NCBI GenBank assembly: GCA_902793125.1
Contig: CADBCC010000010.1
Coordinates: forward strand, 1 to 42,457
From: an uncultured Ruminococcus sp.
GTDB lineage: Bacteria; Bacillota; Clostridia; Oscillospirales; Acutalibacteraceae
Direction: 5' to 3'
DNA length: 42,457 nucleotides
This document shows, piece after piece, positions 1,039 to 33,827 of the stretch (within the stretch, counting starts at the first letter, position 1; the number at the start of each line of letters is the position of its first letter). Position numbers and translations under genes: made by a program. The notes under the pieces are model-generated. The model had not been told where the DNA came from. It did not search any database and saw only the letters and a list, made by a program, of their open reading frames with translations.

Positions 1039-4000
1039 TTATTTTACTTTAACTTTTACTGTTACTTTCTTTGAGCCTGCTTTATAAGAGGCGTTGCCTT
1101 TCGCTTTTACCTGCACTTTAATCTTGTAAGTGCCTTTCTTTGCTTTTTTCCACTTTTTAATTGTGATAACGCCTTTTTTATTTATCTTAACAAGCTTGCG
1201 GATTTTCTTACTTATTCCGCTTTTTATCAGCTTATAAGTAACAGCGCCCTTATTATTCTTAACGGTAATAGTCTTTACTTTCTGAGCTTTCTTTTTAAGC
1301 TTTTTAAGTTTAAGTGTCTTTTTCTTCACCTTAACAGTCATCGGGTTAGGCTTTTTAACCGTCGGTTTGGATGAGGGTTTAGCGGTTGGCTGAACTGTGG
1401 ATGCGGTAGAAATTGTATAACCGGTTCCCGACGGGTTTACTACATTACCGTCCGCTTTTACGACATTATCCCCTATCACATAAATTTCCGACGCGGATTT
1501 GCTTATCTGCCCTACCCAGGTTTCGCCCTTGTACATCTGGTAATAAGCGACGGCGGTATTTATATCCTTGGGAACGCTCGCGCTGTATATCTTTACGCCG
1601 TTTATTTCGTTTTCCGTAGGAGTAAATTCGTAGATATGCGACTTGTTTTCGCTGTCTAAAATAACAAGCTTATAGTTATCGGCGCTCTTTGCGGGCTCGG
1701 TATCAGGCAGGAAGAAGAAGTTTTTAGTCTGTACTTCGGGTTCGGACTGCGTAACATCGGTCGGAATTTCAGCCGAGCTGTCTGTTTCTTCGGATACGCC
1801 TGTAACATCCGTTTCGCCTGTTGTAATCTCGGTTTCTTCGGGAGAAGTAGGCTCATATGTAACAGCTTCACTCTCGTCAGGCTCGGTCGGTAAATCTGCC
1901 TTAGTTTCTGTTTCCGCGGGTTCAGTCGGTTCATCCGTTACAGCTTCGCTCTCGGTAGGAGTTAAAGTTTCGGGCTCGGCGGTTTCGGTAGGTTCGGGTT
2001 CAGTAGTCGGCGCCTGAGTTGTTGCGGGTTCGGTTTCATCCTCTTTAATTTCTCCCGTATAGTCGAAATTAAAGTAATTATATTCTACGTCGTTTTTAGT
2101 TATACTCATATTTCTATCGTACCAGTTAGCGGTATCGTAGAAAATTTTAACGGTATGGGTGCCTTTTTCAAGGTCAAGAGTGAGGTGGGTGCTTGTCTGG
2201 TTTTTAAAGCTGCTGCTTACTTCAGGGAATACAAGCGATCCTTTATCAACTCCGTCAACATAAACGGAACGTATTGCGCAACTGATACCCGATGTCGCGT
2301 CGCCCGAGTTGTTATAAATTCCGCTTAACTGATATCTTCCCGATTTTGAAACGCTTACGCTGAGAGTAAGTTTAGCGCTTTGGGAACGCTTATCTATTAC
2401 GTAGCCGTTGGAGATAAGACTGCTGTTGGAAACCGTGCCGTTTTCCGCCTCGACTTTTATACGATTCGGGCTTACTACAATAGGTTTGCTCAGTTCCGAG
2501 CATACTCCGCCCGAGGAAACCGCCATAAGGCTGTAGCATCCGTAAACACTTTTATCAACAGTATAGCTTCCGCCGCTTACGCTTACATATTCCTTTCCTG
2601 TCCAGAGCTTATAAGTAAGTCCGCTTTTCTGAGTCCAGGTAAGTTTTCCTGATGAACTTGAATAGGACATAGTAGGCATTTCGGGGCATACAACGAGGTT
2701 GTTTTCGGATTTGTTAATCTTATATTCCGTATCGCTGTTTTCCATTACTATTTCAACAGTATGGCTTCCTGTTGAGTCAGCGGAAAATACGTAAGTGTTT
2801 ATATCTTTAGCTGAGCCGTCGACCTTGAACGATTTAACTTTATCGCCCTCGCCCGAGAGTTTTATTTTCAGAGTTGCGTTTCTGTATTTAAGATTGGAAA
2901 GTTCAAACGGGCCCTGCATCCAGTCGGGGATATACGGATTGAAAGTTATTCCGCTTTCATCGTAGTTCATACCGAAAAGCACACGGTAATAACCCGCAAG
3001 CGAGCCCGCGATTGACCAAAGCTGCTGGTCGGACTCTACTCCCTCGCCTGTGCGGTAGTTTATAACTTCTTTCTGAGTAAGGGACGTTGCGGCGCCTCTT
3101 ACGTTGGAGTTGAAAATTTCCTCGGCGAGTTCCTTGTTATTATGATAGCTTGCGCCTACCATAAGAATTGACTCCCAGCCCGGCCATATTCCAAAGTTGT
3201 GATAAATCTTGTTCGCGTTTTTAAGCTTGCCCTGCTTTTGCGGATATACTGTATCAGCTCCGTAAGGTACCAAAGGATAGTTCTCGGAAATTTTATTAAG
3301 CTGGGTATCTGTACCAATGTTAAACCAAAGCGCGAAGCCGTTTCCGAGCACATCGGCTTTTTCGGCAAGAACGCTTCCCATATACTCGGGATACTCCCAG
3401 GATGAGTACAATCCGAGTTTATCGTTCCAAAGTCTTTTGCTAATCTTCGCTTCTAATTTTTCAGCCATCTCCGACCATGCCTGCTCGGCTTGCCCGCCTT
3501 TGTTCAGCACTTTAGCCGCGCTGCTCATAATCTCAAACACACGGCAGTATATTGTATTTACCGACGCGGTTTTGCTTCCGGCAATAGCGCTGAGACCGCT
3601 GTCAACGGTTTCGCTTGTCCAGTCGGGATAAGTCTGGTCACGCCAGTCGAGTCCGCAGGTTTCACCGCGGAAAAGATCCGCGTCTTTGTCGTATGCCACA
3701 TTCAAATCCTGCATAATTGTATTGTTGCATATATCGTAGAAATAGCTTAAATGCTCTTTGTTTCCGTCAACAAGATAGTTTTCCCATACGGAAAGCATTG
3801 TAATTATTTTATCGGTAGAAACGGGATAGGAACCGCCTGTACCTGTGTCCTGCTCAAATACCGAAACATTACTGCTCGTCTTAACTTTTTTACGCTCGCA
3901 GTTGTAGCTGATTTCGGGGAATACCCACGCGAGCGAATATAAACTTGAAAGCGCGGTATCGCGAGTCCAAACCTTATCCCAGTTTGTACCTGTGCGGAAA

Positions 4001-4995
4001 TACCGGGTGCTGTTTTCAGTAAAAATACTCTTTACCGCTTCCTCAAGCGTAAGGTTATAAACAGCCGCCGCGAGCGGAGAATTTTCGGCTTTAAACGCAG
4101 GATAGGACGAAAGGTTTTTAGTTTTAGTCCAGGTTTTAGCGGAGCCCGAAGCGTAGGATGTAATTGATGTAGCCGAATTAGCGTAGGCGTTGTAGCCGTT
4201 GTCAATTACCCTGTCATTTTTCAGCGTGTAATCCTGATAACCCCACTGTGAGCTTGTGTAGTACATCGGAACGTCAGTCGCCTCTGCGTTTCCGTTAAGA
4301 TTTTCAATATTAATAACCGCTTTATCGTTTTTTGTACTTATAAAACGCGCGGCTCCGGTTGATGTATCAACATTCCAGCTTGTATCTCCGCCGTCGGTTG
4401 ACGAAACACAAACAAGCGAGCTTCCGCTTAAAGCGGCGTATTTTTTTGTGGAATTATTCTGGAGATAAAAAGCTCCGCTGCCGTCCGAAATTATATTCCA
4501 GTACGCGGACGCGGGATAGGACGTTTTCGCGCTCTGGTACGAAACTTTGCTGTTTTTTTCTACAAGCACCAAGTCGCTGTGCTCATACCATTTCGATTTA
4601 AGAAGAACATTTTTAACGCCTTTTTCGAGCGAGGAATGAGGATAAGCCTGAATTGAAGGCGAAACATCTTTACTTCCTTTATCCGCGACAAATGTAACGT
4701 CACAGTCTTTATCTAAAATCAAGGTTTCGTTACCCTCAACAGGAGCCTGGAAAGTACTCCAATCAGCAGTAGCCGCCTTATACTCGTAGCTGCCCTTACT
4801 AAGGTGAACTGTTACAAGATAGTGGTTGTTGCTGTCTAAGGTCATAACGTAATCATTTTCAGCCTCCCAGCCGTTGAACGTTCCGCGCAGATAAACTGCC
4901 GCCGCCTCGGCGCCGGGTACAGCCGAAAATACTACTGTAAAACATATTAAAACCGCGCAAATAATACTTGCTGTTTTAACGGTAAATCTTTTCAT
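1039..4995 (-). CDS. Secreted multidomain six-hairpin glycosidase-like protein
   Basis: The 1318-aa product starts with a signal peptide (about 1-31). An X25/CBM20-like beta domain follows (33-105, YLRGTFNGW), then a ricin/trefoil-like segment (about 130-258, with WNI, FYLQN and KYAAL). Residues about 310-690 resemble an (alpha/alpha)6 glycosidase, with WTRDTALSS at 343, RGETCGLDWRD at 443 and GEGVESDQQLWS at 650. A CBM6/35-like domain (about 845-985, KVEAENG) leads into an acidic Thr/Pro/Glu linker (985-1090). A beta module (1092-1190) recurs in the starch-binding protein at the right edge. A very lysine-rich Ig-like tail (1215-1318) ends the protein. I cannot assign the GH family or substrate; alpha-glucan is favoured by the modules. 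The start is supported by GAGGTG seven bases upstream of ATG. An extended -10 (TGGTAAAAT) lies at 5027-5035. There is no dockerin or sorting signal, so the cationic tail may hold it to the wall. Confidence 0.8.
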   Translation of the reverse strand: MKRFTVKTASIICAVLICFTVVFSAVPGAEAAAVYLRGTFNGWEAENDYVMTLDSNNHYLVTVHLSKGSYEYKAATADWSTFQAPVEGNETLILDKDCDVTFVADKGSKDVSPSIQAYPHSSLEKGVKNVLLKSKWYEHSDLVLVEKNSKVSYQSAKTSYPASAYWNIISDGSGAFYLQNNSTKKYAALSGSSLVCVSSTDGGDTSWNVDTSTGAARFISTKNDKAVINIENLNGNAEATDVPMYYTSSQWGYQDYTLKNDRVIDNGYNAYANSATSITSYASGSAKTWTKTKNLSSYPAFKAENSPLAAAVYNLTLEEAVKSIFTENSTRYFRTGTNWDKVWTRDTALSSLYSLAWVFPEISYNCERKKVKTSSNVSVFEQDTGTGGSYPVSTDKIITMLSVWENYLVDGNKEHLSYFYDICNNTIMQDLNVAYDKDADLFRGETCGLDWRDQTYPDWTSETVDSGLSAIAGSKTASVNTIYCRVFEIMSSAAKVLNKGGQAEQAWSEMAEKLEAKISKRLWNDKLGLYSSWEYPEYMGSVLAEKADVLGNGFALWFNIGTDTQLNKISENYPLVPYGADTVYPQKQGKLKNANKIYHNFGIWPGWESILMVGASYHNNKELAEEIFNSNVRGAATSLTQKEVINYRTGEGVESDQQLWSIAGSLAGYYRVLFGMNYDESGITFNPYIPDWMQGPFELSNLKYRNATLKIKLSGEGDKVKSFKVDGSAKDINTYVFSADSTGSHTVEIVMENSDTEYKINKSENNLVVCPEMPTMSYSSSSGKLTWTQKSGLTYKLWTGKEYVSVSGGSYTVDKSVYGCYSLMAVSSGGVCSELSKPIVVSPNRIKVEAENGTVSNSSLISNGYVIDKRSQSAKLTLSVSVSKSGRYQLSGIYNNSGDATSGISCAIRSVYVDGVDKGSLVFPEVSSSFKNQTSTHLTLDLEKGTHTVKIFYDTANWYDRNMSITKNDVEYNYFNFDYTGEIKEDETEPATTQAPTTEPEPTETAEPETLTPTESEAVTDEPTEPAETETKADLPTEPDESEAVTYEPTSPEETEITTGETDVTGVSEETDSSAEIPTDVTQSEPEVQTKNFFFLPDTEPAKSADNYKLVILDSENKSHIYEFTPTENEINGVKIYSASVPKDINTAVAYYQMYKGETWVGQISKSASEIYVIGDNVVKADGNVVNPSGTGYTISTASTVQPTAKPSSKPTVKKPNPMTVKVKKKTLKLKKLKKKAQKVKTITVKNNKGAVTYKLIKSGISKKIRKLVKINKKGVITIKKWKKAKKGTYKIKVQVKAKGNASYKAGSKKVTVKVKVK

Positions 4996-7291: not shown

Positions 7292-10200
7292 TTAGTTATT
7301 AGCTCCGTTGATTTCCGTCATTCCGTTAACTGCCATATCGTTTAACGCTTCATCATACAAGCATACAAAGACGGAATTACTGAATATCGTGTTATTTTCG
7401 GGGTCGGTCTTATCCATAAGATAAGCCGTAACTTTCATTATATATGTTTTATTAGTATAGCTGATTTTATCGCCGTTAACTTTATAGGTGTTTCTGTAGC
7501 CTTTAAAGAATTCAACACGGTTTTTATTAGTCAGGCTTTCGGTAGATATTTCGCTTATCTGAATAGAACGTCTTTTACCGCCGTTTGTCGCGTTTCCTTT
7601 GTAATAGTAGACGGTGGCTTTATCCTGAATAGCCTGAATAAGATTAGCTTGGTCGGAAACGTATTTGCTGTAGTCACCGTCCGGGTCGAACGTTTCATTC
7701 TCGCCAAGCTGTTTGCAAAGCTCAACTACAACACCCGTTTCATATTTATCGGAATCATCGTTGTAGATTCCCTTATCCTTGTTATTGAAAGAAATTTCGA
7801 AGTCGGCGTAAAGCAGATCGGTTATACCGCTCGGCGCGATATCGCCGTTTTCGTCAGTCCAGCGGTTACGCGAATAATCGAGATGTCTTAGTTTTATTTC
7901 CTCGTAATCGGGATCATCCTCGGCGTTGGTTTTTCCGTTAAAGACAGGAGTAATATAATAATTATCCATCATACAGAAGGTAAACCACGGTTCATAGCAC
8001 TTCGCAACAACTTCGCCGTCGGGATCATCGGTTTTTCTGATTTCCCAGTAGCTGAACTCCTTGCCTTCGTAGGTCAGACCTGTGGCGTTAATCGCCTCAA
8101 GTTTTTCGTCGGTCTTTCTGTTAGCTCCGATTGTTGTTTCAATCGTTGTAAACTCGTCGTCCGACGGAAGGAGCTTATAGTTGGCGTAAGCGGATTTAAC
8201 GCTCTGCTCGGCGGTTACGGTAGCCACCATATGGTCTACCTTATCCGAATTTTTCTCTGCGTCCGGATCACCCTTAACCGAAGTCGTCTCGACTTTCATA
8301 TCGGTCCACTTAAGAGTTTCTCCGTGGTTGCTCTCGTAGGGAGCGTTCGAAAGAATAAACTCTTTTTTCAGACGATAGTAACCGTCGTCTGTAATCTTAC
8401 AGGACGACTTACTCTCGTCGAGGTCGTCGCCCGTAAGCGTGCCTTTCTTTACAAAAGTACGCTCAACGCCGTGGCGGTCCTTATATACATAGTTGATATT
8501 ATAAGGAAGCGAAGTTACATCATCTCTCCGCGCGTATACGGCAATAAGATACTGGTCTTTGTTTCTCGCAAGCTGCTGAGACAGCTGGTCGGGATTCCAG
8601 CCGTCGGGGCTGTTCCAGTTATCATGCCTGGTTAACTCGTTGTTATTGTCCTCGTTAATCGACCACCACTCGGCGAACTCGTATTTATATGCACGCTCGT
8701 CAATATCATCCATACTCAGCGAGTAACCGTCGTTACGATGCCATGGAATTTCATTATGGTTTTTAAAACCGTTAGGCGCGGTGAATGTAACCTTCTTACC
8801 GACATGCTCGCCTGTAAGATGGACTTTTTCGCTGTCGGACACATTTTCGTTATTCTGATTATCTACAGCCGCCTGAATACGGGGAGCCAGGTTATCGTCA
8901 ATCTCGTTTCTGAATCCGTCAACAGTATAATCGTCGGTATAATAGAACATAACGTCCATCTTTACCATATCCTGCTTTACAAGGGCATAGTACTTAGTGT
9001 CCCTTTCGGGTAGCTCGCCGTTAGTTCCCAAAAGATCCTTCGAGAGAGTTTCGTTCGTCGTCAGACGTCCGACCTCGGGATGATCTTCGTCATAATCCGG
9101 CGTAGTGTACCATCCGAGGAAGGTATAGCGGTGCAGGTGCAGATATGTAGGCGGAGTAGTAGTATCGTCCACCACTTCGTTGTTGGTATCGTGGAATACG
9201 ATATTCTGGATATCTTCGTAATCGAGTACAGTCTGCATCGATTGATTAAGTCTTCCGAACTTAGGCGTACCGTCATCATAATAATCGGTATCGGAGTTAT
9301 TGTTCACGCATACCATTTTATAAGTAAGCTCGCGCTCGATGTCCTTGCGGTAATAAATCTTAACCGTGTTCCAGGATTCATTAGACTGAACCGTCAGCTT
9401 AACGGGAGCCAGCTCACCGTCGTCATTTGTGATACGCGTATAATTAACATCTTCACCTTCCGAGGAATCATGATAGGTATAATCCGTATCGGGATTAATC
9501 GTAATCTCCTGCTCAACCTGACCTGTAAAGTACTGGTTATTGCTGTCTTTTTCGAACGTAGCCATAACGCCGTCCCACGGAGCGCCCGCGGTAGGATCGG
9601 GATCATCCTTATGTTCCTCTAAATAACTCAGATAAATCTTCTCGGCTGTATGGTCGATATACTGATATTTATACTTATAGGAATTACGGTTAAAGTAAAT
9701 CTTAATTGTCTTTTTATCGTTACTCGAAATCGAAACAGTTCCGTTATCGGCTACGGGAATTTCGGTGGGATCAACCACGCCGCCAGAGTCGGTTACAGTA
9801 TATTTACATCCGCCTTCTACACGGGTAAAGCCCGAATCGGTAAGATAATCCGCAATCGGTCTGTCAAACAGCTCGGCAATCGATAAAGAAGCCGCGACTC
9901 CCTGAGTCTGAAGCGGTATCGTAAGCGTTTCGGACGAGTACTTAGAGTAGGTATTAGCGCCGAGGTCCTGAGTAAGGTACTCAACCTCGTACATATACTC
10001 GGTCTTATTCTCGTCATACAGGAAGGTTATAACGTTAGTCGCAAGCTCTTCCTCTTTCGCTTCGTCGGGGTCGGAATCGGTCGAAGCGGTAAGTACAAGC
10101 GAATGAGTAGCGTCTCTCGCGACATACCCGGGGAGAATCCTCGCGGATTCCGTAACGGAGTCGTGAGTACTTTCCTTTCTAACCTCTTCATATAAAGGCT

Positions 10201-13200
10201 TACGGCTGGAGGCGTCAAGATATTGCACCTTATACCATACCTTGGATTTTTGGATATACTCGAACGTTATATTGTTCGGAGAGTATTCATCATCCGCGTT
10301 ATTCGCCTTTATAACCATTGAGGAGGAGTTGGTAGTAGGCCACCAGTTAGTACCTTCATCCTCTTTTTCTTCGTCCCATTTATATTCGTCGTAAAGCTCG
10401 CTTCCCGACTTCGCGTTAAAGGTTTTAGTCTTATAAACGTACGCTCTGCCTATAGTCGGCGGGGCGATTTCTACACTTTTATCCTCCGCCTTAACGTATT
10501 TTACCTTATACTTAGCAACGTCCTTAGTAACCCATTCCGCGAATAATCTCAGCTTAGCGTTATCGCCTGTCGCTTCTTCGTTAAGCGCGGTAACGGGAAC
10601 GTTCTCGGGCTCAAAACGCACGGGTACACGGTTACGGATATAGTACCATCCCGCGAACGAAGCGCCCTCGGCGATAGGATTAAGCTTAGGTCTCGGATTA
10701 TTGGGACTGTCGTCGTCAACAGGGATAGACATCAGCGGTGTATATGAACCGTAGTCAACTTTAACATCGGTAATATCGTTATCATTTTCGTCCTTACCGA
10801 GGACTACTCTGTTTTCGGGGTGCTGACCCTTTCGGTCGCTGTAATAGTCGTCATAGTCGTCGTAGAAAATAACGTCAATCGACTTCGGAACCCATTTCGC
10901 GAATAACGTATCGTCATCGGCGGGCATCGTCTGGGTATCCAAATCGAAGGGCTCCTCATAACGCGGGTCGTTATACCAGCCTTCGAAGGTAAAGAAGTCG
11001 CGGCGGTTCTCGTCGAAATACTCGGGATCTGGCCAGTAATAACGGTAGTCGCCCGCTTCGTGTCCGTTTTCCGATACCTGATAGGTCGAGTTTATAGGCG
11101 CGCCGTACATAACCGTACGCGTACGGCTTTCGTCCTTATGGTTACCGTTACGGTATTTCAGCGTATACTCGCGGCGTTGGTAGAAGAATTTTATCGTGCA
11201 GCGGCGGTAGTTTTTGGTATCCTCTGACCAGTCGATCTCCGTGTTGTCAGGATCGAGGACGATCAAGCCTTTATCGGTCGTGCGATAGTATTCCAGCTCA
11301 AAGCCCGTCATAGACGTCGGCGTCTGGTTTTTATAAACGGCGCTGTTATTATTCGATCTTTTGGAAGGGTCAGATATATAGTTATACTGATTGCCGGAGT
11401 CGATGGTCTCGTAAACGTGATCGGTAGATAAGCCGTACCATTTTGTTTTTGTGACATAAGAACCGTTTTCTTTTACCTTGGTCGTGAATTGTCTGACATC
11501 GGTATAGTTTCCCTCAGCAAGCAGCGCCTCTTTTCCGTCGTGTTCGAGGATCTCTATCTCTCTGGGGAGCAGCTCGGTGTAGTTCTCATACCTGAAGTGC
11601 AACACATTTTGTATACTGCTGTTCCAGCCATTGTTGGTCAAACTTGTATTAGTCCATGAAATCAAAAAGTGCAGTTCCGTATAGTCTATGTTTCTGCTCT
11701 TCATAGTATTGCGGGCATTTTCTGTAAACATAATACCCTTACCGAGCTTTTCGTAGACGCCCTTTACCGTAAAGTTACCGGAGTCTTTACGCTCTTGGTA
11801 AGATTGGTTATGATATTCAGTCGCGATACTGCCCGGATAACATATTTCCGCCTCACCCGCGCCCTTCCTGTGTACCGTATTGAGCGCGTCGATCAGCCAT
11901 TTATTCGTCAAAGGCTCGTTGTACTTTGCCTCTATTTGATAGTAATAATACCTGTATTTCTTTTTATTGACGGTTTTATCTTTATAATCAATATAATTTA
12001 GTTCTGTAATAGGACCGCCGTTTTCTTGAAGATATTCGGACTTGATTTGCGGCATGGAATCGGCGCAGTCCGACTCCCAGGAGCCTTTAGCCAAAGCCTC
12101 AAGGTAATTATACTCATGATTGCTGTCAAGATATGCCTGCTGATTAAATCCCTTTGTAGAGTTAGTCAGCGTAGCGTATGTTGTTTCGAGCTGATTCTGG
12201 TCGCTGTCGTTATATTTTTGTCTCGCGTAGAAGAACTTCAGGGTAAATGTTTTTCTCTTGAAAAATACGTTAAAGCGGGTAGTACCGTCGCCTCGAACCG
12301 AAACGGATGTATCGGTAATATACCTCGGATCGGAAGTGTTTTCGGAAGTATTCAGTTCGAAAAAGTCGCCGCAACCCGCAAGCTCGTTACTGGTACCCGG
12401 GCTGATGTCGTTAAAATCGATAATCCTGTTACAGGTATGATTTGCGTTTGCGTTCGAAGCAGTATCGTATTCAAATTTATATTTATAATTCAAAGAGCTG
12501 GGGTTATAATTCGGGTCGTCAGGATCGAGTTCATCGTTCCTCGAGTCATTAGGATTAGCGTATCCGAGATTAAAATTAAATAAATCAACAATCTTTTCCG
12601 ATTTCGCTTTATTTCCAGCTTGACTGCTCGTAATAACGCCGTCGGCAACCGCATACTTAGTTGCGTTGTTTATCTTGTGGTCGGGCGTAATTGTCATACC
12701 TGCAGTAACATCCGTCAGCTGATTGTTAACGTATACCTGAGTTACGTCCTTCGCTAAAAGAGCGGTGTAGCCTTCGTTCTCGGCGTTCTCGAGCCAGTAC
12801 ATAACCGTGAAGTGGGTTGTGCCCGGCGTCCAGATTGCCTTATAATAGGTATTCTTAGCAGGGATAGTCTGGTTACCTTGGAGAGATACGGGAGAGGCTT
12901 TCGCCTGTGCTTCGGTTATAATGTTTCCGTTTGAGTCAATATAGTGCCAGCCGTCTTCATCTTCACCTGTGGCGTCATATGTATTTATGGAAGAATCCTT
13001 ATCGGTACGCGCCCATCCGAGGAAGGTATAACCCATACGGGTAGGCGTTTCTATACGGTAAACAGACTCGAACTTCGCGTAAATAGGCTCTACGCCGTAA
13101 CCGCCCTCGCCGAGGTCAAAGTTTACGGAATAGTAGTTTCGGTCGAAATATACGCGGAAGACCGTTGAGCCGTCGGCGGCGATAGCGTCGGGCTCGTGGA

Positions 13201-13726
13201 AAAGGCTCGTAAAGCCCGGAATTTCCTCAGCTTCCAAGTCTTCGGGAGCTGTGCCCGTTTTTCCGAGACGGTTCTGGTTAGCGTCAGTACGCTCACGGTC
13301 GAGAGTATATAAATCATCGTAAACATTCTGAAGGTAATAACGCGCGGCGTAATGGGTATCACCCGCGACATAGTAGATATTATAGGTAAGGTCTTCGTTA
13401 AGGTTTTCGAAACTTATATGAGTTTTCTTCTCTTCGGTACCGCCCGTGGGTAATTGCTCGGGGTCGTTCCCCGCGTCATTGAGCGCGTAAGGAGTAAAAC
13501 CGTTAACATTAGGGTTAGTAACTTCGTAATCCTTTGTTTCGTTAACAGTATAGGTCGCGATATAAGGATCGTGAGCGTGGCGTCCGTCGGTGAAATAATA
13601 ATTTATGCGGACAGTATAATACGACACGGCGGAAACCGTAGCCGCGATAAGCTCAAACATCAACACCAGCACTATGATAAGTGATGATACTCTGATGTGG
13701 AATTTATCCTTAAAAAACCTTTTCAT
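7292..13726 (-). CDS. Giant InlB-repeat / MucBP-like surface protein
   Basis: The 2144-aa product starts at the ATG at 13726, which has AAAGGGG ten bases upstream. The frame is open 24 codons further, but those lack a ribosome binding site. A hydrophobic segment (IIVLVLMFELIAATVSAV) near the N-terminus should act as signal or anchor. The rest is a string of Listeria-Bacteroides (InlB B / Flg_new) repeats, recognisable by GYTFLGWARTDKD, FTFEGWYNDPRY, FAGWYYIRNRVPV and HRYTFLGWYTTPDYD. MucBP-like segments (YKVQYLDASSRKPLYEE) alternate with them. No LPxTG motif, dockerin or C-terminal membrane anchor is seen. It is acidic and Asp/Tyr-rich, typical of adhesins. Promoter at 13827-13855. It heads a likely operon with the acidic peptide and dockerin protein. 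Confidence 0.85.
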   Translation of the reverse strand: MKRFFKDKFHIRVSSLIIVLVLMFELIAATVSAVSYYTVRINYYFTDGRHAHDPYIATYTVNETKDYEVTNPNVNGFTPYALNDAGNDPEQLPTGGTEEKKTHISFENLNEDLTYNIYYVAGDTHYAARYYLQNVYDDLYTLDRERTDANQNRLGKTGTAPEDLEAEEIPGFTSLFHEPDAIAADGSTVFRVYFDRNYYSVNFDLGEGGYGVEPIYAKFESVYRIETPTRMGYTFLGWARTDKDSSINTYDATGEDEDGWHYIDSNGNIITEAQAKASPVSLQGNQTIPAKNTYYKAIWTPGTTHFTVMYWLENAENEGYTALLAKDVTQVYVNNQLTDVTAGMTITPDHKINNATKYAVADGVITSSQAGNKAKSEKIVDLFNFNLGYANPNDSRNDELDPDDPNYNPSSLNYKYKFEYDTASNANANHTCNRIIDFNDISPGTSNELAGCGDFFELNTSENTSDPRYITDTSVSVRGDGTTRFNVFFKRKTFTLKFFYARQKYNDSDQNQLETTYATLTNSTKGFNQQAYLDSNHEYNYLEALAKGSWESDCADSMPQIKSEYLQENGGPITELNYIDYKDKTVNKKKYRYYYYQIEAKYNEPLTNKWLIDALNTVHRKGAGEAEICYPGSIATEYHNQSYQERKDSGNFTVKGVYEKLGKGIMFTENARNTMKSRNIDYTELHFLISWTNTSLTNNGWNSSIQNVLHFRYENYTELLPREIEILEHDGKEALLAEGNYTDVRQFTTKVKENGSYVTKTKWYGLSTDHVYETIDSGNQYNYISDPSKRSNNNSAVYKNQTPTSMTGFELEYYRTTDKGLIVLDPDNTEIDWSEDTKNYRRCTIKFFYQRREYTLKYRNGNHKDESRTRTVMYGAPINSTYQVSENGHEAGDYRYYWPDPEYFDENRRDFFTFEGWYNDPRYEEPFDLDTQTMPADDDTLFAKWVPKSIDVIFYDDYDDYYSDRKGQHPENRVVLGKDENDNDITDVKVDYGSYTPLMSIPVDDDSPNNPRPKLNPIAEGASFAGWYYIRNRVPVRFEPENVPVTALNEEATGDNAKLRLFAEWVTKDVAKYKVKYVKAEDKSVEIAPPTIGRAYVYKTKTFNAKSGSELYDEYKWDEEKEDEGTNWWPTTNSSSMVIKANNADDEYSPNNITFEYIQKSKVWYKVQYLDASSRKPLYEEVRKESTHDSVTESARILPGYVARDATHSLVLTASTDSDPDEAKEEELATNVITFLYDENKTEYMYEVEYLTQDLGANTYSKYSSETLTIPLQTQGVAASLSIAELFDRPIADYLTDSGFTRVEGGCKYTVTDSGGVVDPTEIPVADNGTVSISSNDKKTIKIYFNRNSYKYKYQYIDHTAEKIYLSYLEEHKDDPDPTAGAPWDGVMATFEKDSNNQYFTGQVEQEITINPDTDYTYHDSSEGEDVNYTRITNDDGELAPVKLTVQSNESWNTVKIYYRKDIERELTYKMVCVNNNSDTDYYDDGTPKFGRLNQSMQTVLDYEDIQNIVFHDTNNEVVDDTTTPPTYLHLHRYTFLGWYTTPDYDEDHPEVGRLTTNETLSKDLLGTNGELPERDTKYYALVKQDMVKMDVMFYYTDDYTVDGFRNEIDDNLAPRIQAAVDNQNNENVSDSEKVHLTGEHVGKKVTFTAPNGFKNHNEIPWHRNDGYSLSMDDIDERAYKYEFAEWWSINEDNNNELTRHDNWNSPDGWNPDQLSQQLARNKDQYLIAVYARRDDVTSLPYNINYVYKDRHGVERTFVKKGTLTGDDLDESKSSCKITDDGYYRLKKEFILSNAPYESNHGETLKWTDMKVETTSVKGDPDAEKNSDKVDHMVATVTAEQSVKSAYANYKLLPSDDEFTTIETTIGANRKTDEKLEAINATGLTYEGKEFSYWEIRKTDDPDGEVVAKCYEPWFTFCMMDNYYITPVFNGKTNAEDDPDYEEIKLRHLDYSRNRWTDENGDIAPSGITDLLYADFEISFNNKDKGIYNDDSDKYETGVVVELCKQLGENETFDPDGDYSKYVSDQANLIQAIQDKATVYYYKGNATNGGKRRSIQISEISTESLTNKNRVEFFKGYRNTYKVNGDKISYTNKTYIMKVTAYLMDKTDPENNTIFSNSVFVCLYDEALNDMAVNGMTEINGANN

Positions 13727-13826
13727 AAAATCAACCCCTTTTTTAAATTTCGTACTTCTAAATAATCTATAAAATTGAAATTTTGCATAGAGATACAATT
13801 ATACTATTATCTTTTTATACACTAAT

Positions 13827-30121: not shown

Positions 30122-31477
30122 TTACTTTAATATATCCTTTAAATCAAAAAGTCCCTTATGCTTTGTAACTACAATAACGGTATCTCCGAGTTCAATAGTA
30201 TCTTTACCGCTCGGAATAATAATCCTTCCGTTTCTGTTTATGCATGCAATCTGTAAATCAGATTTAAGATTAAGCATGGAAAGCGGAACTCCGATAGCCA
30301 TATTATCTTCTCTTGCCTTAAACTCAAGCGCTTCAGCCTGGCCGTTGCAGATTGAATACAGAGTTTCGATATTACTTCCGAAAGAATTCTGCATAGCGCG
30401 TACATAACGGATAATGTACTGGCCTGTGAGATGTTTCGGATGGATAACCGAATCAAGCGGCAGACTATCGATAATACTGAAGCTGATGTTGTCGATTTCG
30501 GTAATGATTTTCGCGTCGGGATTTACGTCCTTTGCGAAAAGCGAAACGATAATATTTTCTTCGTCCGTATCCATAAGCGCGACAATCGCGTCGGCGTGCT
30601 CAATACCCTCGGACAGGAGAAGATCCTGGTTCATACCGTTTCCGTGGATAATAACAACGTCGTCTAAAATATCGCTTAAATGCTCGCAGCGCTTCTGGTC
30701 GGTTTCGATAATCTTTACCTTGATTCCGGAATGGCTGAGCGATTTTGCGAGATAGTAGGCGATTTTGCTTCCGCCTAAAATCATAACATTACGGCTTTTT
30801 CCGTTGATTACGCCGAGGTTTTTAAACAGCTTAGCCGCGGTTTTACTCTCGGAAATAATCGAAATAACGTCGCCGGGTTTTATCTCAAAATCACCGTTGG
30901 GGATAAAGCCTTCGTTGCCTCTTTCAACGGTACAGATTCTCAGTCCGCTTTTAAACAAGCTTGCGCAGTCTACAACCTTTTTATTCGCCAAAGCGGATTT
31001 TTCATTTATCTTAACTTTAATAAGGTCGACTACGCCCTTTGCGAACGAATCAATCTCAACCGCTCCGGGGAATTTTATAAGACGGTTTAATTCGCGCGCG
31101 CAGGTCTGTTCGGGGTTAATCGCGAGCGAAAGCCCAAGCTCATCCTTTAATCTCGGAACGTCGGTTGTATACTGAGGATTTCTTACGCGGGCGATAGTTC
31201 TCGGAGCGCCGGCGGTTTTAGCAATAAGACAAGCGTATAAATTAAGCTCATCCGAAGCGGTAACCGCAATCATAAGATCGCTGTCTTTAATTCCGGCGTC
31301 ATTCTGAATTTCGAAAGTCGCGCCGTTTCCTACTACTCCCATAACATTCTGAGTTCCGGCTACCGACTGCAAAGCGTTAGGATCGGTATCAATTACGGTA
31401 ATACTGTGTCCTTCACGGTTAAGCTGGTCGGCAATTGTGCGTCCTACGCGTCCGCATCCAACAACAATAATTTTCAT
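30122..31477 (-). CDS. trkA: Trk potassium uptake regulatory subunit TrkA
   Basis: The 451-aa cytosolic protein is a tandem of two RCK units: TrkA_N (1-120, IIVVGCGRVGRTIADQL), TrkA_C (about 135-220), TrkA_N (about 228-345, MILGGSKIAYYLAKSL) and TrkA_C (365-451). The first half has the canonical GxGxxG NAD(H)/nucleotide loop; the second has a modified GGSKIAY loop. The gene is first in the operon, downstream of a good sigma-A-type promoter; ribosome binding site AAGAGGTAATC. Confidence 0.96.
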   Translation of the reverse strand: MKIIVVGCGRVGRTIADQLNREGHSITVIDTDPNALQSVAGTQNVMGVVGNGATFEIQNDAGIKDSDLMIAVTASDELNLYACLIAKTAGAPRTIARVRNPQYTTDVPRLKDELGLSLAINPEQTCARELNRLIKFPGAVEIDSFAKGVVDLIKVKINEKSALANKKVVDCASLFKSGLRICTVERGNEGFIPNGDFEIKPGDVISIISESKTAAKLFKNLGVINGKSRNVMILGGSKIAYYLAKSLSHSGIKVKIIETDQKRCEHLSDILDDVVIIHGNGMNQDLLLSEGIEHADAIVALMDTDEENIIVSLFAKDVNPDAKIITEIDNISFSIIDSLPLDSVIHPKHLTGQYIIRYVRAMQNSFGSNIETLYSICNGQAEALEFKAREDNMAIGVPLSMLNLKSDLQIACINRNGRIIIPSGKDTIELGDTVIVVTKHKGLFDLKDILK

Positions 31478-31836: not shown

Positions 31837-32231
31837 GTGGCAGCAATATGGTGGCAAAGAAAAATTTGCTGCCACACCGCAACCCCAATGTTTATGCGGG
31901 TTTCAGATACCTATGGTACCAATGGCGGCAAATTACTATACATTATGCTTTTTAAAAAATAATATTTTATTTTTTATAATTATATAGTTATATAAAGGTT
32001 TTGCCGTCACAGTTTTAGTTTTATGTTTTAAGCATACGTTAACTATTTGTATTAGAAAATTTCCTTTTGCCAACGGCTAAAATATCAAGAATATAGTTGT
32101 ATGCCTTGTCCTTACACACTTGTATACCATGTTACTCTTGACAGGTGCTCCGCCCCTACCGAGAACTGAGAGCTGACTACTTCTCACTTATCACTTACGA
32201 CTTCCCGCTTATCACTTCCCACTTCTCACTT
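31837..32231 (-). repeat. Dispersed palindromic repeat, copy B, with tandem array
   Basis: This is the inverted counterpart of 528-712: a 39-nt palindrome (31837-31875, arms GTGGCAGC / GCTGCCAC), an AT-rich core (31930-32002), the 16-mer GGTGCTCCGCCCCTAC (32144-32159), then a tandem array of short CTTATCACTT/CTTCTCACTT units to 32231. The interval 32003-32143 (about 140 bp) has no counterpart in copy A. Confidence 0.7.
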
Positions 32232-32243
32232 TACAAACAACAA

Positions 32244-32265
32244 GCCCGCGGCAAATGCCGCGGGC
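32244..32265 (-). terminator. Terminator of the mini-ORF transcript
   Basis: A 9-bp GC stem GCCCGCGGC / GCCGCGGGC with a 4-nt loop, followed on the minus strand by TTGTTGTTTG. Confidence 0.75.
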
Positions 32266-32551
32266 AAAAACTACTTAGATCATTGGACTATCCTCAACCT
32301 TTATTCAATTTTAGTCGAGTATAAATTAATTAGAACATTGGTCTATTCTCCATAAATATAATAAAAACAGTTTCTTAGTCTGCTCGAAAATCAAATTAAA
32401 CAAATCATGGGACTATCCCCTATCTATAAAAAACTAAAACTCAAAAATCTATAATTAAAATATTACACCGGACCAGTCTCCGTAAAACTAATTTTATTTT
32501 TTATAAACTTCAATGATTTATTTTTCAAGATGCGCCGCCGATGCGGCTGAC

Positions 32552-32614
32552 TTAGTTAGGCGGGAAACTCCGCTTGAGGTCTTTGATAGAAATTCTATAT
32601 GGTCTATGTAACAT
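32552..32614 (-). CDS. Predicted 20-aa leader-like peptide
   Basis: The ORF encodes 20 residues: N-terminus MLHRPYRISIK, C-terminus KRSFPPN, then TAA. Its ribosome binding site (AAAGGAGG, eight bases before ATG) is among the best in the window, and a consensus promoter lies about 35 bp upstream. The peptide is basic and ends in Pro-Pro-Asn; Pro-Pro near the exit of a short ORF is a context where ribosomes tend to pause. The stop is followed at once by a GC-rich hairpin. It is too short to classify and could be a leader peptide or a secreted/toxic micropeptide. Confidence 0.55.
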   Translation of the reverse strand: MLHRPYRISIKDLKRSFPPN

Positions 32615-32647
32615 CTGAAAAACCTCCTTTTGTTTTTTGTTGTCTAT

Positions 32648-32676
32648 ATTATATACTACTATTTTTGATTTGTCAA
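32648..32676 (-). promoter_or_regulatory. Consensus sigma-A promoter of the mini-ORF transcript
   Basis: TTGACA (32676-32671), 17-bp spacer, TATAAT (32653-32648). This is the only perfect two-box match that I found in the window, and it drives no ordinary gene. Confidence 0.9.
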
Positions 32677-33056: not shown

Positions 33057-33827
33057 ATGAGAATTGTAATTAAGATAGGAACCTCAACATTAGCCCATCC
33101 CACAGGACTTCTTAACATCAAAAGAGTTGAGCAGATGTGCAAGGTTATTTCCGACTTAAAAAATGCCGGACATGAAATTGCTATCGTAAGTTCGGGAGCT
33201 ATCGGAATGGGACTCGGAAAAATCGGCTACACAAAACGTCCCGATGACATTCCGACAAACCAGGCAGCGGCGGCAATCGGCCAGTCGGAGCTTATGTACA
33301 CCTACGATAAGATGTTTTCCGAATACAACCACACCGTAGCGCAGATACTTATGACCGGCGCGTATGTTGCGCTTGAGGACTACGGAAAGAATCTTAACAA
33401 CACCCTGTACAGACTTCTTGAACTCGGTGTTATTCCGATAATCAACGAAAACGATACTGTAACCACCGACGAAATTGTTATCGGCGACAACGATACTTTA
33501 GGCGCTACAATCGCGCTTACGCTTAAAGCCGACCTTCTTATACTTCTTTCCGATATTGATGGACTGTTTACGGACGATCCAAACGTAAATCCCGACGCAA
33601 AACGAATTGATATTGTTGAGGAAATTACGGAAGATATCGAAAGCTTAGCTGGTAAAAAGGGATCCGTACTTGGAACAGGCGGTATGATTACGAAAATCAA
33701 CGCCGCTAAAATGGTTACGGAAAAAGGAATCGAGATGGTAGTAGCCAACGGCAGAAACCCCGAAATCCTGTATGACATTCTGAACGGTACAGCCATCTGT
33801 ACAAGATTTAAAGCGAAAAGTAATTAA
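33057..33827 (+). CDS. proB: Glutamate 5-kinase
   Basis: The 256-aa enzyme phosphorylates glutamate in the first step of proline synthesis. Amino-acid-kinase motifs are IVIKIGTSTLAHPTG, IVSSGAIGMGLGKIG, PIINENDTVTTDE, GDNDTLGATIAL, LLSDIDGLFTDDP and GSVLGTGGMITKINAA. The protein ends after the kinase domain; the C-terminal PUA domain found in many ProB proteins (about 370 aa) is absent, as in other short forms. The ribosome binding site AAAGGCGGG supports ATG. First gene of proB-proA-proC. Confidence 0.96.
   Translation: MRIVIKIGTSTLAHPTGLLNIKRVEQMCKVISDLKNAGHEIAIVSSGAIGMGLGKIGYTKRPDDIPTNQAAAAIGQSELMYTYDKMFSEYNHTVAQILMTGAYVALEDYGKNLNNTLYRLLELGVIPIINENDTVTTDEIVIGDNDTLGATIALTLKADLLILLSDIDGLFTDDPNVNPDAKRIDIVEEITEDIESLAGKKGSVLGTGGMITKINAAKMVTEKGIEMVVANGRNPEILYDILNGTAICTRFKAKSN

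Follow-up and report, generated by a model that had tools for sequence, protein, structure and literature searches.

A free-standing RNA gene family of the Ruminococcus bromii genus with a conserved PPN-ending micro-ORF and an array of predicted start-codon hairpins

What is encoded in the apparently empty interval between trkA and an AA_kinase gene on contig CADBCC010000010.1 (assembly GCA_902793125.1) of an uncultured Ruminococcus sp.? The window (i.e., the whole stretch of DNA analysed) comprises positions 1 to 42,457 of this contig, 42,457 nucleotides (nt) in total. The original prediction, made from these letters, had described the interval as gene-less, and the list of open reading frames (ORFs) of at least 60 aa indeed holds a single entry between the end of trkA (31477) and the start of the AA_kinase gene (33057), an 82-codon TTG ORF that runs antisense into the AA_kinase gene. 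By direct reading and scanning, a transcription unit of approximately 405 nt was located there on the minus strand (32235-32676). As judged from sequence comparison, this unit belongs to a family of free-standing RNA genes in the Ruminococcus bromii genus, and the family is found in about half of the sequenced relatives. R. bromii is a keystone species of starch degradation in the gut of humans and ruminants. The anatomy shown by the aligned members consists of a consensus promoter, a micro-ORF, a predicted hairpin at a fixed distance behind it, an array of mostly 3-5 hairpin/start-codon motifs, and a closing terminator. The job of the RNA most likely involves ribosomes.

The features of the unit and its flanking genes are compiled in Table 1. 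The TTGACA-N17-TATAAT promoter, the strong Shine-Dalgarno (SD) sequence, the 20-codon ORF ending in FPPN and the terminator of the original prediction were all recovered at their coordinates by reading and by scanning. The four motif copies, expected 55-70 nt apart, have start-like codons spaced 60, 70 and 55 nt, and the mini-ORFs that follow (GTG-TAA, ATG-ATT-TGT-TTA-ATT-TGA, ATG-TTC-TAA and ATG-ATC-TAA) read exactly as proposed. The 405-nt RNA has a predicted fold of -104.8 kcal/mol, vs -81.4 kcal/mol for shuffled sequences (standard deviation 5.2; z = -4.5; 0 of 100 shuffles as good). In this fold the SD letters GGAGGUUUU are paired with AAAGACCUC inside the same ORF (32552-32630, minus strand), by which the ORF of the window could, if the model holds, mask its own ribosome site; the CCUC that pairs with the SD sequence in the window is not kept in all relatives.

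Table 1. Features of the transcription unit and of the flanking genes in the window
Feature	Position	Strand	Description
Promoter	32648..32676	-	TTGACA 32676-32671, 17-nt spacer, TATAAT 32653-32648; 12 of 12 consensus letters
Shine-Dalgarno sequence of micro-ORF	32623..32630	-	AAAGGAGG; direct reading
Micro-ORF	32552..32614	-	MLHRPYRISIKDLKRSFPPN + TAA; 20 residues; conserved core is the C-terminal RS[LF]PPN
GGAG within Arg-Ser codons	32568..32571	-	fixed at nucleotide level; 7 nt upstream of the second Pro codon
Stem-loop	32534..32547	-	GCCGC-ATCG-GCGGC; begins 7 nt past the Asn codon
A/U-rich helix	32422..32508	-	32508-32490 with 32441-32422; encloses motif copy 1; predicted three-way junction
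Motif copy 1	32463..32482	-	CGGA-GACTGG-TCCG then GTG-TAA; GTG at 32468; ATG in many relatives
Motif copy 2	32391..32420	-	GGGGATAGTCCC-ATG; ATG at 32408; mini-ORF ATG-ATT-TGT-TTA-ATT-TGA
Motif copy 3	32330..32351	-	GGAGAATAGACC-A-ATG-TTC-TAA; ATG at 32338
Motif copy 4	32275..32295	-	GAGGATAGTCC-A-ATG-ATC-TAA; ATG at 32283
Intrinsic terminator	32235..32265	-	9-bp all-GC stem 32265-32257/32252-32244; U-rich tail
trkA	30122-31477		TrkA_N domain match
AA_kinase gene	33057-33827		domain match

A DNA search of 59 genomes returned clear relatives of the unit within the same genus, whose GTDB name we take to be Ruminococcus_E. A profile built from 13 micro-ORF peptides (A1) identified the ORF in 77 of the 161 genus genomes at E <= 0.001, and in 39 of the 81 high-quality ones. 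For a second alignment (A2), 43 relatives were picked from 54 prepared references, four loci having been set aside beforehand. Among its most conserved columns are the -10 region and the ATAGACAA behind it, and the GGAGG of the SD sequence is invariant in all 43 sequences. A further model (R1), which uses sequence only, was made from 43 sequences and covers the -10 region, the leader and the ORF. It gave 83 matches at E < 1e-8 in 81 of the 161 genomes in the genus to which Ruminococcus bromii YE282 belongs, where E < 1e-8 is a cut of our own choosing; at E <= 0.01 the tally is 137 of 161. Only matches at E < 1e-8 were kept, because the scores leave a gap beyond this cut (the next match in the genus is at 2.8e-6, the best one outside at 1.0e-5) and because the weak matches, which were not checked singly, cover mainly promoter and SD sequence (at most 27 bits outside the genus). 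The four genomes that R1 added over A1 also encode RSLPPN. Together with the fold of the window RNA, occurrence in 81 of 161 genomes bears out the claim of a compact independent RNA that joins an ORF to repeated motifs, and the motifs are conserved in the relatives.

Beyond the genus, a family sample of 250 genomes contained strong R1 matches in two genomes only (G000 and G033, both in the genus), the rest scoring at most 27 bits even though 46 of the 250 genomes reached E <= 0.001. Nothing convincing was found beyond the genus in an order sample of 295 genomes, in which the best match besides the own genome was at E = 0.0155 and 129 genomes reached E <= 1, none of which was looked at individually. 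A degenerate 33-nt pattern, made from the family and fitting 65 of the 75 parsed loci (see below), had 67 matches in a collection of named genomes, all of them labelled as Ruminococcus, Ruminococcaceae, Oscillospiraceae, Clostridia, Clostridiales or simply bacterium. Two of the titles, Ruminococcus bromii YE282 and Ruminococcaceae bacterium P7, bear no metagenome or uncultured mark, and the viral contigs scanned with the pattern gave zero matches. As expected originally for an RNA outside the known families, no Rfam 15 family exceeded its gathering score in the window, and in the 12 relatives scanned the one family to do so was a tRNA next to a locus; a permissive search returned weak matches below the cut-offs only.

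The loci were read from the 79 peptide matches of A1. A near-identical second place in genome G384 was left out, 78 loci were read and 75 were parsed, using an expression that allows motif variants and requires the SD sequence. Locus L103, which is outside A2 and has the variant SD sequence GGGGG, and L125, at a contig end, were read by eye instead and encode RSFPPN and, at the contig end, RSLPP; both stand outside the 75, and L128 is not among the parsed loci either. One genome (G372) holds two different family members, L104 and L130. In the own genome, near L003, a segment (G000:C2:33123-33183) resembles the promoter-leader-SD part with 24 bits in R1; it may just be another strong sigma-A promoter.

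The micro-ORF is among the most conserved parts of the unit. All 75 parsed loci encode ..RS[L/F]PPN, behind which the peptides differ, with tails of 0 to 14 residues. Since third positions vary silently at Leu, Pro, Pro and Asn (first Pro: CCA 31, CCG 25, CCC 19; Asn: AAT 38, AAC 37), the amino acids themselves are under selection. The Arg codon is CGG in 73 loci and AGG in 2, and the Ser codon is AGY in all 75; in the 16 ORFs of the window CGG accounts for 2.3% of Arg codons and AGY for 37% of Ser codons. Because these codons are fixed (NGG-AGY) against codon usage, the GGAG letters that they contain are selected as RNA. GGAG sits where an internal SD sequence could pair with a ribosome whose P site is occupied by the second Pro codon. 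Among the PPX motifs in E. coli without EF-P, PPN turned up in the pausing set and nowhere else (PMC4140641). A ribosome pause at PPN is considered probable. Peptides of four family members had no match in Pfam and NCBIfam.

A product role of the peptide itself (signal, antimicrobial or toxin-like), with the remaining RNA as a mere 3' untranslated region, would suit a basic 20-35-mer conserved at the amino-acid level. The conservation, however, stops at PPN and gives way to tails of 0 to 14 residues, no hydrophobic stretch was seen by eye, GGAG is fixed at the nucleotide level, a conserved structured RNA lies behind the ORF, and no neighbour gene family exceeds 21 of 67 loci, all of which makes this role very improbable. 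A signal peptide or a signalling role of the peptide was likewise found unsupported when the sequences were inspected by eye.

Behind the ORF, a stem of at least 4 bp at offset 5-8 past the Asn codon is present in 60 of 67 distinct loci and missing from 7. It beats 95% of its own shuffles in 43 of the 67 loci, as compared with 4, 2 and 3 of 67 at three control offsets, the offsets 5-8 having been picked after earlier single-sequence stability data were viewed. Its 5' arm occurs in 39 distinct sequences among the 67 loci, and in an alignment of 27 sequences of the long form described below (A3) double changes were found at 4 of its 7 pairs. Single-sequence stability is modest (median z -1.2; 16 of 68 below -2), so that the claims on this hairpin, and those on the short-form junction, rest on positional and covariation tests. 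A terminator right behind the ORF was considered and rejected, as no U-run was seen behind the hairpin. Located at the mRNA entrance of a PPN-paused ribosome, the stem would complete a programmed-pause layout of upstream SD sequence, difficult peptide bond and downstream stem. Such a layout of upstream SD sequence, slow site and downstream stem resembles that of programmed frameshift sites. A programmed frameshift at CCN-CCN-AAY was discarded, with no conserved extension or alternative frame seen by eye in a few sequences.

The family occurs in two forms. In the short form, to which the window belongs, the peptide begins with ML and the array starts approximately 60-85 nt past the PPN codons; in the long form the peptide mostly begins with MK, the array starts at about +230 to +350, and a branched domain occupies the gap between ORF and array. 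The closing helix of this domain is paired in 89.6% of cells and has double changes at 9 of 11 pairs. Closing helix and post-ORF hairpin together reach a covariation score of 0.426 in A3, vs 0.260 in shuffles (0 of 500 reach the observed score). With slid partners the score is at most 0.143, a control that leans towards the helix, as the helix was derived from the same alignment as its test. Taken together, these covarying helices of the long form have double changes at 13 of 18 pairs, in a structure partly derived from A3 itself. A long-form motif pattern matches 25 of the 161 genomes, every one an ORF carrier, and its reversed control never matches.

In the short form, a predicted A/U-rich helix with changed arms encloses motif copy 1, and among 23 sequences folded singly (L013 left out) the GGA/UCC hairpin of this copy lies inside the helix in 17 (manual count). 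The stability of the junction is modest (median z -1.6; 5 of 23 below -2). Consensus folding of either form in full yielded few features other than local hairpins, and sub-alignments did better. With silent codon changes in the ORF and covarying helices in the long form, peptide and RNA parts are both under selection, as in a dual-function small RNA. The strong conservation of the ORF, the hairpin at a fixed distance behind it and the further covarying domain of the relatives had not been part of the original prediction.

Copies of the repeated motif were counted with an array expression that demands ATG or AAG, skips GTG (including copy 1 of the window) and admits some false matches. It gave 286 matches in the 75 loci (ATG 243, AAG 43), and by automatic count 64 of the 75 loci have 3-5 copies, within a range of 1-7. 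When the start triplet was masked in the scan, 268 distinct hits were obtained (ATG 209, AAG 33, others 26). Among the other triplets judged to lie inside an array, ATG is replaced by GTG (3), ATA (1) or ATT (1); in last copies, AAA or GAG stands in place of AAG. For 175 of the 212 distinct ATG copies, the stop triplet reached first lies in frame (short form 69 of 74, long form 106 of 138), mostly at offsets of 3, 6, 9 or 12; a TGA that overlaps the ATG itself (79 copies) is omitted from this count. In loci L108, L110, L010 and L103 some array copies share their spacers (e.g., TAACGTAAGCAGG in L108), which suggests that units of about 55-58 nt were recently duplicated in tandem.

The small stems with kept pairing that had been proposed for the motif held in part. 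At the third pair, 153 of 204 distinct copies have standard pairing, above the shuffle maximum of 145 (mean 126); at the outer pair only 72 of 204 do, a figure that shuffles also reach (mean 59, maximum 73). Pairing of GGA with UCC was predicted in 2 of 5 aligned unit classes, and an outer helix round each array unit was not found in the five classes. Pairing of the motif to the 3' end of 16S rRNA beyond the SD letters was considered and set aside; the base before CC varies (T in 212 of 279, A in 62 of 279). GGA is not invariant either, copies with GGTGGTTAGACC, GGTACAGTCC and GAGGTAAGACC being found, the first two of them commonly, and the GG of the motif is placed on the 5' side of the stem and not in the hairpin loop.

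One of the two functions suggested originally, a CsrB-type RNA that sequesters CsrA, would account for the GGA present in several hairpins. For PF02599, however, 0 of the 161 genus genomes exceed the cut-off and the own genome has no match at all; three partial CsrA matches below the cut-off all fall in genomes that lack the RNA, and the controls E. coli, B. subtilis and T. maritima gave matches. With no genome over the cut-off and GGA not invariant, a CsrA sponge is excluded for the genus, and the probability left to it is negligible.

Sites outside the family loci were searched with a 16-nt motif at up to 2 mismatches in eight genomes, where 8 of 32 matches fall in family loci and 24 elsewhere, vs 21 in a reversed control. 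A regulon of mRNA targets with the motif at their start codons was rejected on these figures, which show no clear enrichment. Thirteen outside sites were read on the same strand: 8 lie within an open frame of more than 100 codons and 4 in no such frame, and 3 of the 13 (two genes), two of them also among the 8, precede a plausible start codon. In R. bromii YE282 an isolated GGAGATGAGTCCAATG-GAT-TAG (L210, G002:C32:17467-17482) stands outside the main locus and in no long frame of the same strand; it may be a stray copy or a second small RNA.

Does the unit serve a neighbouring gene? Gene names were obtained by reading of printed sequences, and TrkA/TrkH by domain match, in a named set of 67 loci. 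The view of a cis-acting leader of trkA-trkH (potassium uptake), or of another neighbour, draws on the short form, where 16 of 22 loci have trkA on the same strand as one of the three genes that follow. Against it, the terminator intervenes, other ORFs lie between element and trkA in 8 of these 16 loci, and the long form is located elsewhere, often convergent with a pgm-like gene, which was found downstream on the opposite strand in 21 of 45 long-form loci; other long-form loci lie near genes resembling tsaB, rpiB or spo0A. Cis-regulation of trkA was rejected by this comparison, and a cis-acting leader in general is highly improbable. No downstream gene family is common to more than 21 of the 67 loci. 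A regulated gene downstream in the same transcript was not encountered, the terminator following in the window and the downstream genes differing among the 67 loci. With regard to a type III toxin-antitoxin system, in which a repeat RNA stands directly before an endoRNase toxin gene, no gene family was common to most of the 67 loci, whose neighbours were not searched with toxin models. The RNA probably acts in trans, given that its loci lack a shared neighbour and that the unit ends in a terminator.

The best explanation of these observations, held tentatively and at somewhat less than even confidence, is a trans-acting RNA worked by ribosomes, in which a programmed pause at PPN is combined with a ribosome-binding array. 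A ribosome on the micro-ORF would pause with Pro-Pro at the end of the nascent chain and Asn in the A site, aided by pairing of the upstream GGAG with the anti-SD sequence and by the stem-loop at the mRNA entrance. This 5' roadblock may shield the RNA from decay at its 5' end, set its fold, or both. The downstream SD-like/ATG motifs might then bind 30S subunits or be translated as mini-ORFs, and the RNA would serve in trans as a ribosome-occupied decoy or as a sensor of the translation state. That the array engages ribosomes is possible, though the odds are rated slightly against it. Elements of such a scheme are on record: in B. subtilis a strong SD sequence or a stalled ribosome near the 5' end stabilises long untranslated RNA (PMC3997798), and transcripts can be protected by SD-minigenes (PMC8708949).

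Several points weigh against the ribosome-operated explanation. The AAG matches are the last of their array in 39 of 43 cases (automatic count, a few false), the long-form last copy being concerned. No in-frame stop follows within 4 codons in 40 of 212 ATG copies, two of these at contig ends, and the count of in-frame stops overstates the signal because copies within one lineage are not independent. The letters between the SD-like purines and ATG are conserved, and translation alone needs none of that. Below the R1 cut are 80 of the 161 genus genomes, many of them incomplete, so that the RNA is not essential to the genus. The profile and the expression by which the 75 loci were found favour RS[LF]PPN, and the invariance of this core is therefore partly a matter of selection in the search. 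Finally, internal SD sequences were without effect on EF-P-dependent translation in E. coli, as reported in PMC4140641, a null result that speaks against synergy between SD sequence and PPN.

Some of these points are shared by the main rival, in which the array is a sponge or scaffold for an RNA-binding protein other than CsrA, each GGN-loop-NCC-A(U/A)G hairpin being one site and AUG and UAA serving as contact letters. The conserved letters between purines and AUG and the replacement of ATG by AAG in the last copy agree with such sites, as do the partial stem support (third pair; GGA/UCC in 2 of 5 unit classes), a varying copy number, which suits additive sites, and the UAA of copy 1 of the window, which lies within a predicted hairpin. 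The 175 of 212 copies whose first stop, at one of several offsets, is in frame, the change of ATG to GTG in 3 cases and the want of a second set of sites (24 outside matches vs 21 in the reversed control, eight genomes) are harder to reconcile with it, and the protein-binding array is regarded as unlikely.

The other function suggested originally, ribosome-capturing minigenes, may hold. The copies have SD-like purines, a first stop in frame in most cases, and GTG, ATA or ATT in place of some ATG; the AAG of the last copy, the copies without an early stop and the conserved letters between SD and ATG do not fit. Phage lambda bar is a known minigene case. A self-poisoning or growth-slowing device modelled on it, with ORFs of 1-5 codons that release peptidyl-tRNA and thereby deplete particular tRNAs or block ribosomes, is suggested by the ATG-TTC-TAG, ATG-CGC-TAG, ATG-ATC-TAG and ATG-TAC-AGT-TAA classes with their SD-like purines, and the toxicity of minigenes is set by length, last codon and SD sequence (PMC8708949). 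Such a device is rated quite unlikely: besides the AAG of the last copy and the 40 of 212 copies without in-frame stop within 4 codons, the ATG-TAA class yields no peptidyl-tRNA beyond fMet, and the second codon varies.

How does the ribosome-operated explanation compare with known systems? RAPP-like and other C-terminal arrest peptides (ApdA, ApdP, SecM) share a short ORF, a conserved C-terminal Arg/Pro-Pro motif and an adjoining RNA element for the stalled ribosome (PMC12992588), and CliM of Clostridia, a related C-terminal arrest peptide, can be likened to the micro-ORF (PMC13183943). RAPP-like peptides have an R-x-P-P core, whereas the 75 parsed loci have R-S-[L/F]-P-P-N, so that this core is absent. 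Unlike arrest peptides, the family has no conserved downstream gene, and its stall is a prediction. A regulatory arrest peptide in general would have a conserved nascent-chain motif that ends at a stall codon; in the family, conservation ends at PPN, the predicted pause site, and the tails vary. Minigenes (phage lambda bar and, in PMC8708949, the axe-txe leader, B. subtilis ycbK, and LEE4 of enterohaemorrhagic E. coli) have in common with the motifs an SD sequence, ATG, one or few codons and a stop, and are thought to act via ribosome occupancy. The arrays differ from them in having usually 3-5 copies, no downstream gene, conserved sequence round the start, and a last copy that often lacks ATG. 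The stall in the ermC leader, a 5' roadblock in Gram-positive bacteria, is similar in that ribosomes held up close to the 5' end might shield a long tail that is not translated (PMC3997798). Unlike ermC, the family RNA has no downstream ORF, and protection would here be by analogy. OLE, GOLLD, ROOL and the raiA motif/ModT are also free-standing structured RNAs of Bacillota; the present family differs in its conserved ORF and in the lack of an Rfam 15 match at the gathering score.

The RNA is thus not of the CsrB type, not an R-x-P-P arrest peptide and not the leader of a conserved gene. In the literature on R. bromii RNA, arrest peptides, minigenes and candidate structured RNAs, it is not described among the matches listed, supplements lying outside this search; the main text of PMC8040213, on candidate structured RNAs of human microbiomes, does not contain the word Ruminococcus, and an unnamed prediction in its supplement is possible. 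As anatomy, the architecture is rated new in kind, the mechanism being conditional. The combination of an arrest-like micro-ORF with arrayed hairpins that resemble ribosome sites, on one conserved RNA, fits no family tested. If the array binds ribosomes, the RNA would be a decoy for translation itself, and polyproline pausing would have a use besides controlling the gene next door. More doubtful is the proposition that the family is a new class of RNA, operated by ribosomes and acting in trans, with the programmed pause (PPN, upstream GGAG and entrance hairpin) as its 5' switch and tandem SD-ATG-stop hairpins that capture ribosomes; it would give gut Ruminococcus a decoy or translation-stress sensor with neither a large protein product nor a downstream gene.

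Three further observations were made in the window, all on the minus strand. Right behind the terminator, positions 32175-32226 contain a degenerate run of GTGATAAG- and GTGAGAAGT-like units, as seen by eye. A protein of 2168 residues with Flg_new repeats is encoded at 7292-13798, and a protein of 1318 residues, encoded at 1039-4995, matches a glycogen/starch-binding module.

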